Below the pieces are notes generated by a model. That model had not been told where the DNA came from. It saw nothing but the letters and a program-made list of their open reading frames with translations, and searched no databases. A stretch of 37,979 nucleotides of DNA from a virus, in the IMG/VR virus record IMGVR_UViG_3300023174_000353, positions 1 through 37,979 of that record. One strand, 5' to 3'. Both the position numbers and the translations under genes were made by a program. Positions 11,304 through 37,750 of this stretch are shown in pieces (position 1 is the stretch's first letter; each line of letters opens with the position of its first letter).

Positions 11304-11552
11304 TTACCACTTGACTTTGTTAGCCCAGTATGCTGCCGACATTTTGCCTTTAGCGATGTTCTTTGCGTGGCGTGCTTTGAATGCCTTATTTCGGGCTGTG
11401 CCATCTGGTGAGCCTTGAACTCCTTGTTGTCCGAACCTGATGAGTTTGACTTTGTCTCCATCTTTGGCTAGGACAGCATGAGATTTGTTGGCGTCAGGTG
11501 TTCGCTTTGGTTTGTTATAGCCAGCAAACTTCTCGCCCCTGTACTCAATCAT
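11304..11552 (-). CDS. Small basic phage protein of unknown function (GYNKPKRTP family)
   Basis: 82 aa: YRGEKFAGYNKPKRTP, then KLIRFGQQGVQGSPDG, and a C-terminal KARHAKNIAKGKMSAAYWANKVKW. I recognise this conserved family (a domain of unknown function found in many podoviruses and pelagiphages). It is strongly basic. It overlaps the 52-aa gene upstream by 4 bp and belongs to the run of basic proteins upstream of the adaptor. Function unknown. Confidence 0.65.
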   Translation of the reverse strand: MIEYRGEKFAGYNKPKRTPDANKSHAVLAKDGDKVKLIRFGQQGVQGSPDGTARNKAFKARHAKNIAKGKMSAAYWANKVKW

Positions 11553-29031: not shown

Positions 29032-31005
29032 TTATATCCATGATGGACGCCATTGTCTTGGTGGCTTTTTGTGTGTGGTGAGGTTCGGTGCATGGAGACA
29101 GGCGAACCATAATGCCATTGCGAGGTCTGTTCCGTTTTTTTTGTCGCGGGTCCATTTGCATAGTTCGTCTACTAGTGCGAGTGTTTTCCAGTTTCCTCGC
29201 ATTGTTGGTAGTCGGAGTGCGCCTGAACGTGCGAGTGGTGGTAGGACTGCTTCTATTCCTAGGTTTTGGTCTAGTTTGTTGCGTGATGTGGTGTGTGGGA
29301 GGATGTTTACTCCCCATTTGGCTGTCCATTTGCGGACGAAGTCGTGTTGGAGTAGGAATCTTTGGGCTGCGTTGATTTCTACGATGATGTGGGAGACGGG
29401 GTAGCCGAGGTATTGGGCGCGTTCGCACCATTCTTGGAGGATTCCTGAGAAGGTGCTGTCGGTTGTGTTGTATCCGAGGAGGTTTTCTGCGGTGAGTTTG
29501 GTTCTTTGGATGTCTATGATGTGATACAGGTTGTGTTCTGGTTGGTAGAGCATCCAGATGAGTCCCCAGAATTGGGTTGGGGATGGGTCAATGCTGATGA
29601 TGGAGATGACTGGGGCGCGTAATCCTGGTGGGATGTGCTCGGGTAGGCGTTCGTTGTCTACGCAGCCTTGGTATAGGACGCCGTCTTGTCCTAGTCCTCC
29701 AGTAATCCAGGTTCTATCAACAAGATATGTTTCGTCGGCGAGGTCTTCTTGTTGGTAGATGACGCGGAAGCGCTCATTGTTTGAAGAACGGAGATACGAG
29801 AGGTCTTTCCACGAGAGCCTTTTCGGGTCCAGTAGCGGTCCGTCAGGGTAAGCAGCCGAGTCAAGACGCCTGGACTTAGGACCAGTATCCAGGTCTTCGT
29901 AGTACGCCTTGTAAATAATATGCTTATATTTTTGTTTCTTGGTGGGTTCAGGCTTCTCAAGCACTGTGGAAGCCGTGACATCTTCGCCATCATAATCGTC
30001 CTCGTCTAGGTCGTACGTTACTTTATTAAGACAGTGGGCATAAAGGTCTCCTGAGCCGAGTCTTTGTCCGACTACAACTAAGGTTCCGCCTGGGTCTACA
30101 CGGGCTTCTGCCATTGAGTCCCAGCGTTCTAGGAGTTTGTCGCGGGCTGTGGATTCTCTAGCGTTTTCGGTGGAGGCTACGTCGTCAAAGAGGCAGAGGT
30201 CTGCACGGTGTCCGATGAACTCTGCATCTATACCGTATGCGCGGACGGTTGGTTCTTTGTTGTCTAGCCCGTTGCCGTCTAGTTGTTCTACGATGAATTC
30301 TTCTGCACGCCATAGCGCACCTTTGTCTGCGGGTTTGAAGCGTCCGTAGTCTATAGAGAGGCATCCTTGTGCGTCTTGGGCTAATCCTTTTTTGGCTAGT
30401 TCGGTGTCTGCGAGCATTGGGTTGGGGCGTTCTAGGGTTTCGCGGATTCGGCGGCTGTACATTTTGGCTAGGTTTTGGTTAGCGGAGCCGATGAGTACAC
30501 GGATGGCACGGTTCTTTACGATTGCCCATACTGCGACATCATGGAATAGGGTTGATTTTCCTGCTCCTGGTGGCACATTCAAACAGATGAATTCTTTTTC
30601 TTCGCTGTCTAGGGATTTAACGATTTCTATTGCGGCTTCTACTTGCCATGGGGAGGACACTCGTCCTAAGTAATACTCTCTGAAGAATTGGAAGTCTTCT
30701 AAACCACGTTGTGCTTCAGGTGTTAGACGGTCTAATGGTATGGCTGGTGGTAAATCGCCTGCTTCAGCCAAGTCCATTGCGGCTTCCCATTGGACGCCAC
30801 CTTGACGACGGGTATGTTTGGTGAGTTCTATTGCTGCGACATCTGCGTTTGCTTTGGCTACTTTAGATTTTTTTATCCAGTTGTAACCTGTGTTGGGGTG
30901 AACACCTGCGATGCGGCATGCGTCTAGGGTTGTGTGTCCTGAGTGGATTGCTTGCCAGAAACGTGCTTTGTCGTTTGCTGGTACTTTACGTATTCCCTGT
31001 GCCAT
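29032..31005 (-). CDS. terL: Large terminase with fused N-terminal HTH
   Basis: 657 aa from the ATG at 31005; an earlier GTG would add 38 unlikely residues. Residues about 10-50 are a helix-turn-helix (TTLDACRIAGVHPNTGYNWIKKS) of the kind usually in small terminases. The ATPase has Walker A VPPGAGKST (about 144-152), Walker B LCLFDDVA (DD at 274-275) and a VVVGQR coupling segment. The nuclease has ISIDPSPTQFWG, IIVEINAAQRF and a late TDLAMALW, giving the D, E and D metal ligands. It cuts and pumps DNA into the head. No separate small terminase gene is seen. Confidence 0.85.
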   Translation of the reverse strand: MAQGIRKVPANDKARFWQAIHSGHTTLDACRIAGVHPNTGYNWIKKSKVAKANADVAAIELTKHTRRQGGVQWEAAMDLAEAGDLPPAIPLDRLTPEAQRGLEDFQFFREYYLGRVSSPWQVEAAIEIVKSLDSEEKEFICLNVPPGAGKSTLFHDVAVWAIVKNRAIRVLIGSANQNLAKMYSRRIRETLERPNPMLADTELAKKGLAQDAQGCLSIDYGRFKPADKGALWRAEEFIVEQLDGNGLDNKEPTVRAYGIDAEFIGHRADLCLFDDVASTENARESTARDKLLERWDSMAEARVDPGGTLVVVGQRLGSGDLYAHCLNKVTYDLDEDDYDGEDVTASTVLEKPEPTKKQKYKHIIYKAYYEDLDTGPKSRRLDSAAYPDGPLLDPKRLSWKDLSYLRSSNNERFRVIYQQEDLADETYLVDRTWITGGLGQDGVLYQGCVDNERLPEHIPPGLRAPVISIISIDPSPTQFWGLIWMLYQPEHNLYHIIDIQRTKLTAENLLGYNTTDSTFSGILQEWCERAQYLGYPVSHIIVEINAAQRFLLQHDFVRKWTAKWGVNILPHTTSRNKLDQNLGIEAVLPPLARSGALRLPTMRGNWKTLALVDELCKWTRDKKNGTDLAMALWFACLHAPNLTTHKKPPRQWRPSWI

Positions 31006-31030: not shown

Positions 31031-31058
31031 TTGCAATTTGTTTTTGTGTGTGTATACT
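31031..31058 (+). promoter_or_regulatory. Promoter for the candidate ncRNA/leader transcript
   Basis: TTGCAA (31031-31036), 16 bp, TATACT (31053-31058), reading rightwards. The -10 matches consensus at five of six bases. A start near 31065 would make a transcript of about 340 nt up to the terminator at 31404. It lies just upstream of the terminase gene, which reads the other way. Confidence 0.5.
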
Positions 31059-31064
31059 TGCTGT

Positions 31065-31404
31065 CAACTTCACAAGTCGTCACTGTCGGGAGATAGCGAT
31101 GCACGCAGGGCTGTACCACGGTTGCATGTGGCGGGGCGCAAACAGGGGAACCTGGGTTGATATCTATTCTTTGAAATAGGTAAGCAGCGTGATGAACGTC
31201 ATCTCATCAAACAAAGGTGTCGGCTAGAATAGCCACGGCGACCTTCCGCGGGGGCGGGAACTGTGGGGGAGGCACTCTTATGCTGTTTTGAGAGTTGAGC
31301 CAACGGCAGGTAAACCATCTAGCGCGCCCTAGCGGGCTTGCTCGCAAAGAAGGAGAAGCAATGTTGCTAACGTCTGACACCCTCGTTCAGTGCTTCTTTT
31401 TTTT
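31065..31404 (+). ncRNA. Candidate structured noncoding RNA or long leader, about 340 nt
   Basis: No conserved protein is encoded here. The plus-strand transcript would contain many stems: CAGG-GGAA-CCTG with a GNRA-type loop (31143-31154); an 8-bp TATCTATT/AATAGGTA stem (31161-31182); GATGA/TCATC (31191-31203); AAGGT/ACCTT enclosing GGCT/AGCC (31214-31245); GGC-ACTCT/AGAGT-GCC (31271-31301); and GCCC/GGGC with outer AGC/GCT (31321-31342). It is locally GC-rich, has a promoter in front and a U8 terminator behind. I do not recognise it as tmRNA, RNase P RNA, 6S or a riboswitch class I know. An attenuated leader for the early genes is the main alternative. Confidence 0.5.
31354..31404 (+). terminator. 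Intrinsic terminator with U8 tract
   Basis: AGAAGCA (31354-31360) pairs with TGCTTCT (31391-31397), with an inner CTGA/TCAG pairing, followed by eight T (31397-31404) and another T run at 31408-31414. The 5' arm overlaps a ribosome-site-like AAGGAG and an ATG at 31361. Confidence 0.75.
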
Positions 31405-31615
31405 CCGTTTTTTTCTAACTGCAATATGCGTCGCTGTATAACACTTGCTCACAGAAAACACAACCAAACCCACACACCCACCCACACTATTTAGCACTAA
31501 ATCTAGAGCCAAATTTAAAGCCACAAATGTGTATGTCTCCCGCGAAGATATACAGATACTGGAGGAGGGAGTCGCTCGGCAGAGCCCCAGTTGCTGATAT
31601 ATCACCAACAGATGT

Positions 31616-32111: not shown

Positions 32112-32120
32112 TAGACCGAA

Positions 32121-32165
32121 ACGCCTTCGGGCGTCTGTCCGTAATGCGGACACTGACGAGGTCAG
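32121..32165 (+). promoter_or_regulatory. Three tandem hairpins between the first two early genes
   Basis: ACGCC-TTCG-GGCGT (32121-32134, UUCG tetraloop), TGTCCG-TAATG-CGGACA (32136-32152) and CTGAC-GAG-GTCAG (32153-32165) fill most of the 72-bp gap. No T-run follows, so they are not a terminator. They may stabilise, process or protect the message. Confidence 0.6.
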
Positions 32166-32183
32166 CACAACGAAAGGGAAACA

Positions 32184-32369
32184 ATGACACGCAAAGACTA
32201 CCAAAAACTAGCCACAATTTTGGGCGACATGTACCGAATGGCAAGCAAGGAAAACAAGTCAAGCATTCGGGATTATATCAACGGTGTAATTTCAGAACTA
32301 GCAAAGACTGAACCAAACTTCAATACAGCAAAGTTTGTTTACTGGCTTGATGTAGCGTCAGTCAAGTAG
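32184..32369 (+). CDS. Small early protein (MTRKDY family), 61 aa
   Basis: AAAGGG lies ahead of the ATG. The product, MTRKDYQKLATILGDMYR, YINGVISELAKTEPNFNTAKFVYWL, fits a short phage protein family with an MTRKDY start and NPxFxxxxF ending that is common in actinophages and other phages. Function unknown. The 45-aa gene before it has a similar two-helix outline. Confidence 0.6.
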   Translation: MTRKDYQKLATILGDMYRMASKENKSSIRDYINGVISELAKTEPNFNTAKFVYWLDVASVK

Positions 32370-36212: not shown

Positions 36213-36271
36213 AGTAGCCTTGCTCCCACGGTTTCCCCTTCCTGTGGTAGAGCAGGGCTACTTTTTATTTT
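36213..36271 (+). terminator. Strong terminator between the convergent units
   Basis: AGTAGCC (36213-36219) pairs with GGCTACT (36256-36262); TGCTC/GAGCA and CCAC/GTGG extend the stem, and CTTTTTATTTT follows. It ends the rightward early transcript. The WhiB stop (36258-36260, minus strand) lies in its right arm; a T-run on the other side is missing, so leftward termination is less efficient. Confidence 0.8.
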
Positions 36272-36518
36272 CACCCAAAGCATCACGCTGGCGTGGGGTC
36301 TTGCCACCGAACACCCCGTACCTGCGAATGTCATTCGTCTCCGCCTGCATGGCAAGCATCAAGCACTCACGGCGCACCGAACACAGCCCGCACACCTTCA
36401 CCGCCTCATCAAACACACCGCGATGGTTCAACCCAGCAGGTATATCAGGGAAAAATATCTTCGCGTCCATACCTTTGCATCGCGCACGGTCATACCAACC
36501 CAACTCTAACTCTCTCAC
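36258..36518 (-). CDS. WhiB-family transcriptional regulator
   Basis: 86 aa, GTG start overlapping the previous stop (GTGA). Four cysteines at C14, C43, C46 and C52 give the C...CxxC-x5-C pattern that holds a [4Fe-4S] cluster, and YGVFGG (67-72) followed by KTPRQR matches the WhiB turn and basic end that contact the host sigma factor and DNA. WhiB proteins occur only in Actinobacteria and their phages. It is the last gene of the leftward unit. It could switch phage transcription or interfere with host WhiB control. Confidence 0.85.
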   Translation of the reverse strand: MRELELGWYDRARCKGMDAKIFFPDIPAGLNHRGVFDEAVKVCGLCSVRRECLMLAMQAETNDIRRYGVFGGKTPRQRDALGENKK

Positions 36519-37114: not shown

Positions 37115-37349
37115 GGTACGGGTTTCTCCAGATAACTGCGGAACAGTTGGCTTCAACTGCTTCTCTTTGTTCATCGCTTTCATAGCAACGCATCACATAA
37201 ACGCAAGGGTCAGAGCCGTCCATGTACTCTGCGTCTTCTGTAATCGTCATAGGTATCCCGTCATGGGTTGAGCATACGGGTGGTGTAGTGAACCCTGCCC
37301 TAAGACCAATCTCTAACCATTGGTCAAAGGACAGTTTCATAATGTCCAC
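37089..37349 (-). CDS. Conserved actinophage protein (PPVCSTHDGIP family)
   Basis: 86 aa. The GTG at 37349 overlaps the SSB stop (TAGTG); an ATG at 37340 is possible. FTTPPVCSTHDGIPMT, then DGSDPCVYVMRCYES, is a motif I know from many actinophages, always of unknown function. Its Cys and His could bind a metal. It overlaps the next gene by 26 bp. Confidence 0.6.
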   Translation of the reverse strand: MDIMKLSFDQWLEIGLRAGFTTPPVCSTHDGIPMTITEDAEYMDGSDPCVYVMRCYESDEQREAVEANCSAVIWRNPYHDERNQRQ

Positions 37350-37750
37350 TAAAAACTTTCTTCTTCCAAGAACGAAGGTGCGCCGAACTTCTGTGCTACT
37401 TCTTTCATGGTTTGGTTTGTTTTGTCAGCGAACACAGCATTGAAACGCATAGTCAAACCAAGTTCGTCAGCCAAGATTTTTGTTGTCCATTTCTTCTCAC
37501 CAGTTTTTTTGTCATCGTATGAGGAGATGTCAAGTTTGCCTGTCACAATAACGCGACTGCCCTTTTCAATAGATGATGCAGCGTACTCTGCCATCTGACC
37601 GAAGACAGTGACGTTGTGCCACACGGTAACCTTCTTCTCATCTTTGCCTGATGTGGTAGCAACAGAGAATGTGCCTTGTGCCATTCCTGACGCAGAGTAT
37701 TTCAGTTCAATAGGTTTGCCAGCGTTGCCGACAATGGTGATGGTGTTCAT
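37349..37750 (-). CDS. ssb: Single-stranded DNA-binding protein
   Basis: 133 aa. The OB-fold pattern of SSB is complete: MNTITIVGNAGKPIELKYS, GMAQGTFSVATTSG, VTVWHNVTVFGQMAEYAASSIEKGSRVIVTGKLDI and KWTTKILADELGLTMRF. It ends EEESF, a short acidic tip with terminal Phe like SSB tails that recruit partners. It protects single strands during replication and recombination and works with the exonuclease and annealing protein of the same unit. Overlaps the Zn-ribbon gene by 4 bp. Confidence 0.85.
   Translation of the reverse strand: MNTITIVGNAGKPIELKYSASGMAQGTFSVATTSGKDEKKVTVWHNVTVFGQMAEYAASSIEKGSRVIVTGKLDISSYDDKKTGEKKWTTKILADELGLTMRFNAVFADKTNQTMKEVAQKFGAPSFLEEESF

Follow-up and report, generated by a model that had tools for sequence, protein, structure and literature searches.

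Comparative analysis points to a new class of pseudoknotted noncoding RNA in phages of probable actinobacterial hosts

Few large RNAs encoded by phages are known, and almost none of them has an assigned function. GOLLD and ROOL are ornate examples whose function is unknown and which form RNA-only nanocages (PMC12286853), and with them the large structured phage RNA of unknown function is a kind that has precedents. For the freshwater groups of Actinobacteria, few phages have been isolated (PMC10202952). We analysed a locus in a 37,979-nt stretch of viral DNA, referred to below as the window (IMG/VR record IMGVR_UViG_3300023174_000353, positions 1 to 37,979). The original prediction, made from the letters of the window, had proposed a structured RNA of a new or divergent class at positions 31031-31404. 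This region of the plus strand is flanked by the start of the terminase gene, which is on the minus strand, and by a gene-poor control region. The features of the window to which the text refers, apart from the helices of the RNA, are the following.

29032 to ~31005, minus strand: terminase large subunit gene (phrog_38, E = 7e-61)
31031 to 31058, plus strand: putative sigma-70-type promoter TTGCAA-16-TATACT, matching the consensus at 9 of 12 positions; in relatives the form is extended, TTGCAA..TGnTAYRCT
31065 to 31404, plus strand: structured noncoding RNA, predicted transcript of ~340 nt, 191-bit covariance model match
31354 to 31404, plus strand: intrinsic terminator, stem AGAAGCA/TGCTTCT at 31354-31360/31391-31397 and U8 at 31397-31404
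~31521 to 31594, plus strand: cos-like conserved DNA element, a candidate cos or pac site, 3' of the RNA and containing CTCGGCAGAGCCCCAGTTG
36258 to 36518, minus strand: WhiB transcription factor gene (PF02467, E = 7e-14)
37349 to 37750, minus strand: SSB gene

Relatives of the RNA were collected by several routes. A search of IMG/VR with the terminase yielded 80 loci, and 69 of 82 sources contained the RNA by iterative nhmmer, most of the others having too short a stretch upstream of the terminase to show it. A search pattern derived from the best-conserved part of the RNA, GTGTCGGCTNNAAN{2,16}ACGGCNACC, gave at least 120 matches in viral contigs, with nhmmer confirming the RNA in every viral locus retained, and two narrower scans enlarged the set to at least 284 IMG/VR loci, of which at least 214 are non-redundant. 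The aligned sequences fall into three groups: A, which has a short P4 and includes the window, B, with a long P4, and C, with a divergent P2. The covariance model R1 (252 positions, 49 pairs) matched the window once, at 191 bits, and a model built from groups A and B detected all of the group C or partial loci tested, at 36-159 bits, even though group C was absent from the model; it also recovered additional outlier loci at 20-154 bits. Two contigs carry two divergent copies of the RNA each, one with copies at 399-599 and 11339-11505 (L267), 11 kb apart, and the other, the 79-kb contig IMGVR_UViG_3300032093_000074 (L252 and L273), with copies ~46 kb apart. Outside the viral contigs, the same pattern matched GTDB genomes 35 times, approximately the number that we estimate for chance, and the remainder of the RNA aligned in none of these. 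The covariance model, run with strict filters, found the RNA in none of 396 genomes from the phylum of a Gordonia genome and in none of 198 from the class of an Acidimicrobiales MAG; within these 594 actinobacterial genomes, strict filters and short candidate lists, the RNA is probably absent from host genomes. Searches by blastn returned nothing from isolate phages (four representative queries) or plasmids (one query), and no description of the RNA was found in the literature searched, which consisted mainly of open-access papers and excluded preprints. Because the window phage encodes WhiB, as does a related locus (L086), its host is probably an actinobacterium, and by the same token the RNA class is probably carried by phages of Actinobacteria, probably freshwater ones.

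Along the plus strand, TTGCAA (31031-31036), a spacer of 16 nt and TATACT (31053-31058) are followed by the RNA, a 7-bp stem and U8; the 5' end of the predicted transcript was placed from the promoter and the 3' end from the terminator. The promoter scan gave 9 of 12 matches at the RNA site, with 2.0 promoter-like sites expected in a shuffled 2-kb region. The proposal that the RNA has its own promoter at 31031-31058 was borne out by comparison, as 101 of 142 relatives carried the extended -10 form TGnTAnnnT no more than 30 nt from the start of the RNA, against 3.5 (maximum 10) after shuffling. The strong U8 terminator stood in part: its stem and U8 are present in the window, but among the 51 tails of relatives examined a U-run 3' of the core, mostly ~120 nt past it, was clear in only 30, compared with 6.4 (maximum 13) after shuffling and 25 of 51 in the antisense control. 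A clear terminator was missing from several of these relatives, several group B members among them. As had been predicted, there was no conserved open reading frame on either strand in the relatives compared, the longest frames being short and variable in position of frame and in strand. With a promoter of its own, a terminator that is clear in 30 of the 51 relatives and no conserved reading frame, the RNA gene appears to be independently transcribed.

We then considered the fold. The original prediction had pointed to at least six stable stems, and as an argument from stability this did not survive: folded alone, the window RNA reached -117.6 kcal/mol (z = -0.66), and 26 of 100 shuffled sequences did as well. 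Since the window fold is no stabler than shuffles, stable stems in one sequence prove nothing, so single-sequence stability was rejected as evidence and comparison was used instead. There the helices other than P6 were upheld by covariation among relatives. The predicted elements of the window RNA, in which "null" refers to the phylogeny-aware test described below, are as follows.

31078 to 31101, plus strand: P1, outer part 31078-31081/31098-31101, inner part 31083-31087/31092-31096, loop GGGA
31110 to 31137, plus strand: P2, 31110-31112/31135-31137 and 31116-31119/31128-31131; pairs 31118-31129 and 31117-31130 beyond the null
31143 to 31154, plus strand: P3, 4-bp stem CAGG/CCTG with GNRA tetraloop GGAA at 31147-31150
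31161 to 31182, plus strand: P4, 99.2% paired; pair 31162-31181 beyond the null
31191 to 31208, plus strand: P5, 31191-31194/31205-31208; pairs 31194-31205 and 31193-31206 beyond the null
31216 to 31243, plus strand: P6, near-invariant core GGUGUCG..CGGCnACC, 31216-31222/31236-31243
31246 to 31257, plus strand: P7, a variable hairpin, 31246-31249/31254-31257, with covariation in the phylogeny-aware test
31240 to 31261, plus strand: lone long-range pair 31240-31261, between the bulge of P6 and the strand 3' of P7
31232 to 31273, plus strand: P8 pseudoknot, GCC 31232-31234 with GGC 31271-31273, past the conserved G-run 31265-31269

Covariation was assessed for 50 proposed pairs in 53 sequences of groups A and B, aligned by sequence with MAFFT. 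In this set 91.9% of the cells were paired, compared with 74.6% after shuffling and 29-45% in controls in which the pairing was slid, and 30 of the 50 pairs showed two-sided changes. Double-change cells in P1-P7 numbered 422, against 146±10 in shuffled and 42-148 in slid controls. Since shuffling ignores kinship, we also wrote a tree-based null for this analysis, which keeps the substitutions on each branch, and simulated 30 alignments under it. Fifteen column pairs exceeded all 30 simulations. Thirteen of these are helix pairs, distributed over P1, P2, P3, P4, P5, P7 and the lone pair 31240-31261, and the other two (column pairs 93-97 and 93-104) were rejected as register artefacts of P3. Compensatory changes thus go beyond what phylogeny would yield by chance, as expected of a structured noncoding RNA. 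In P1, eight of nine pairs showed two-sided changes and pairs 31083-31096 and 31079-31100 exceeded the null; its outer part is missing from some group A members. The GNRA-type loop noted originally was confirmed in P3, whose stem was 100% paired and covaries (pairs 31144-31153 and 31145-31152 beyond the null) and whose tetraloop is GNRA in most relatives. P4, which is short in the window, is long and elaborated in group B; the loop of P5 opens with a conserved AACG, and the apical loop of P2 contains a near-invariant UUGCA (31122-31126). P6 is invariant and is therefore supported by conservation and not by covariation, and P7 was only 58.9% paired owing to indels in the alignment. The lone pair 31240-31261 was canonical in all 53 sequences (G-C in 40, U-A in 7, C-G in 5 and U-G in 1).

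Comparison also revealed two pseudoknots, P8 and a pairing of the P2 loop with a downstream strand. In P8, the triplet that directly precedes ACGGC pairs with the one that follows the G-run, with GCU/AGC, GUC/GAC and GCC/GGC exchanging among relatives; at least 3 bp could form in 117 of 148 loci, compared with 84.9 (maximum 102) when the tails were permuted, in a test that does not correct for kinship. An alternative hairpin, P6b (31223-31225/31231-31233), was rejected in favour of P8, as its 5' side is invariant while its 3' side covaries with the 3' tail. The second pseudoknot joins the P2 loop to a strand past the 5' side of P4 and was read from the alignments, without statistics. In group C, GCAUGGG/CCCAUGC exchanges with GCACAGG/CCUGUGC and with ACAAUGGG/CCCAUUGU, and in group B the counterparts are UUGCA and UGCAA; group A, which includes the window, has no downstream partner for the P2 loop. 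The UGCAAC strand of group B has a second potential partner, GUUGC in P4, so that a conformational switch in the group B RNA is possible. Taken together, the compensatory changes and the lack of coding in relatives bear out the proposal of a new or divergent structured RNA class. That this is a real, conserved structured RNA we regard as virtually certain, and the comparison demonstrates, at the level of sequence, that its fold is under selection and that at least 214 distinct loci carry homologues of it.

The gene neighbourhood of the RNA bears on how it might act. Position beside the terminase start, as originally described, holds for the phage lineage of the window, where RNA and terminase are divergently oriented in each of the 177 non-redundant loci that have a window-type terminase, among the at least 214 listed, at a distance of 46-2697 nt (170 loci measured). 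It does not hold for the RNA class overall: in 12 of the loci listed the divergent operon comprises SSB, WhiB and a terminase of an unrelated family (phrog_979/phrog_2), and 25 others are cut off or have different neighbours, some of them co-directional with the RNA. The window terminase has no close counterpart in isolate phages, the best match over most of its length having 25.6% identity. Residues 13-53 at its N-terminus match phrog_4102, a family of terminase small subunits, and the N-terminus also has a weak match to an HTH domain, so the gene (29032-31005) is possibly a TerS-TerL fusion. The conserved DNA element 3' of the RNA has the consensus ..AAAAGAGTGA..TAATACATATATA..CCTCGGCAGACCCCCAGTTG and was present in 120 of 132 loci with a window-type terminase and in none of 8 with an unrelated terminase. 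The presence of this element thus goes with the type of terminase, as would be expected of a cos site, and that of the RNA does not; contig ends, however, do not cluster at this candidate cos site. Several other observations were made around the locus. In L110, L121 and L155, GGTTCGACTCC-like stretches resembling tRNA 3' ends lie directly upstream of the RNA promoter, on the terminase side. Four loci (L290, 2064-2528; L301, 1650-2177; L241, 154-630; L239, 4081-4491) have, beside the RNA, a protein family that resembles helicase loaders and matches nothing in Pfam, downstream of the RNA in three distant phages and upstream in one; this family was considered as a partner of the RNA and rejected, being not constant elsewhere and without a Pfam name. 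A probable type II hammerhead ribozyme lies at 32114-32171 on the plus strand, upstream of a small gene at 32184, with a complete core (CGAAAC..GUC..CUGACGA) and closed stems I and III. It scored 29.5 bits against RF02276 (E = 0.038 over the whole window), short of the gathering score of 37, and is shared by L003 and L007. Hammerhead-like regex matches occurred ~0.9-1.5 kb downstream of the RNA in ~10 loci, with 11 unfiltered matches antisense in the same loci, so that the regex alone proves nothing.

With the RNA at the head of the terminase operon and the cos-like element just downstream, it could be imagined as a component of the packaging motor comparable to the phi29 pRNA. We consider this improbable: the RNA also accompanies unrelated terminases, there without the cos-like element, it is found in other neighbourhoods and in two copies on some contigs, and the Rfam model of the phi29 pRNA does not match it. 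The same proximity might instead mean that expression of the divergent late operon is timed in cis, either by the act of transcribing the RNA or by an overlap between the RNA and the promoter region of the terminase, as the gap between core and terminase is only 46-74 nt in many loci and divergent promoters there must overlap or interfere. Yet the gap extends to 2.7 kb elsewhere, with inserted genes and tRNA-like stretches and with the RNA intact, interference needs no conserved pseudoknotted fold, and some members stand in co-directional gene runs, making cis control unlikely. Nor does a constant co-directional gene, as a cis leader or riboswitch would have, lie downstream: the terminator and the cos-like element follow the RNA, and the downstream genes differ. 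Scarcely credible is a DNA-level element, such as a replication origin or packaging signal, that merely resembles an RNA. A conserved DNA element does lie nearby in the control region, but the compensatory changes preserve pairing on one strand, the promoter and U-tract flank the region in phase, and the RNA fold persists where the DNA element is missing. Because the fold is kept when terminase, neighbours and orientation change, and no neighbour is constant, action in trans is favoured, and the same persistence argues against a leader, against a packaging RNA for one terminase and against a DNA element. We infer that the RNA very probably acts in trans. In the main lineage, its near-fixed place ahead of the terminase might nonetheless reflect a link to packaging or late-gene control.

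What the RNA does in trans is less clearly indicated. Its invariant residues are concentrated in one pseudoknotted domain and a GNRA hairpin, as in catalytic RNAs, and the P6/P8 core might accordingly cleave itself or process another RNA; no ribozyme family in Rfam matched over the RNA, however, there is no indication of a cleavage site, and binding of a protein or ligand explains the invariance equally well, so we think catalysis doubtful. Assembly into RNA-only homo-oligomers has its precedent in the GOLLD and ROOL nanocages, and the self-complementary UGCA within the near-invariant UUGCA of the P2 loop would allow copies to kiss. Against this, the P2 loop has an intramolecular partner downstream in groups B and C and the RNA is at most about half as large as ROOL; taken by itself, such assembly seems rather unlikely. 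As no phage gene is constantly adjacent, the partner is likelier to be a host component or copies of the RNA itself than one cognate neighbour protein. In the reading that we prefer, host RNA polymerase would transcribe the gene during infection, the RNA would work in trans as a folded molecule, and the invariant P6/P7/P8 pseudoknot core would serve as a scaffold or decoy, binding a conserved host target or self-assembling in the manner of GOLLD and ROOL. That the locus is a gene standing on its own, whose product is a trans-acting noncoding RNA of ~340 nt with several pseudoknots, of a new class and with such a scaffold or decoy mechanism, strikes us as evenly balanced. We more tentatively suggest a host-takeover RNA, that is, a new class of large phage RNA whose pseudoknotted core, kept across unrelated packaging modules, would target a conserved actinobacterial component (ribosome, RNA polymerase or RNA-decay machinery) or form an RNA-only particle. 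The mechanism itself, by analogy the binding of a host component by the folded RNA, or its self-assembly, in the course of infection, is put forward more cautiously still. If host takeover is the correct reading, such an RNA would operate in a widespread group of uncultured viruses, whose hosts appear to be Actinobacteria, freshwater groups probably among them. The class is clean, compact and well aligned, with three structural subgroups and many members, and that it persists while terminase, packaging site and gene order are exchanged is a direct clue to action in trans. Since the ~250-nt core fits SHAPE and cryo-EM, the role of large phage RNAs becomes testable.

Rfam 15 was searched by cmscan with permissive filters, using the window and six divergent loci, and no family matched over the RNA at E ≤ 1, including the models for GOLLD, ROOL, OLE, raiA, 6S, RNase P and pRNA. 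The original statement that it matches no familiar RNA class was sustained in that search, and by this comparison the RNA constitutes a putative new class that shares neither sequence nor fold with any Rfam 15 family. Like the candidate RNAs described from metagenomes (PMC2864571, PMC8040213), it was recognised by covariation in uncultured sequences, ahead of any assigned function, but it does not match those members included in Rfam 15. It resembles the phi29 pRNA as a small structured RNA encoded at the genome end concerned with packaging, in this case next to a terminase and a cos-like element; it differs in that its terminase belongs to the TerL family phrog_38 and in being kept with unrelated terminases. 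With ROOL it shares carriage by phages, a complex fold, several pseudoknots and the lack of a known partner (PMC12286853), whereas it is about half the size and the hosts differ, being those of WhiB phages of Actinobacteria. With GOLLD it shares the character of a large structured phage RNA encoded by an independent gene, and GOLLD has lake-derived members (PMC12286853); GOLLD, in contrast, often exceeds 800 nt and has different helices, and the RNA described here is not as a rule near tRNA islands. From promoter to terminator the latter spans ~340 nt, below the ~600 nt or more by which RNAs of the GOLLD and ROOL type are recognised. As their Rfam models do not match an RNA so far known from sequence, GOLLD and ROOL would be not its relatives but its closest analogues in behaviour.
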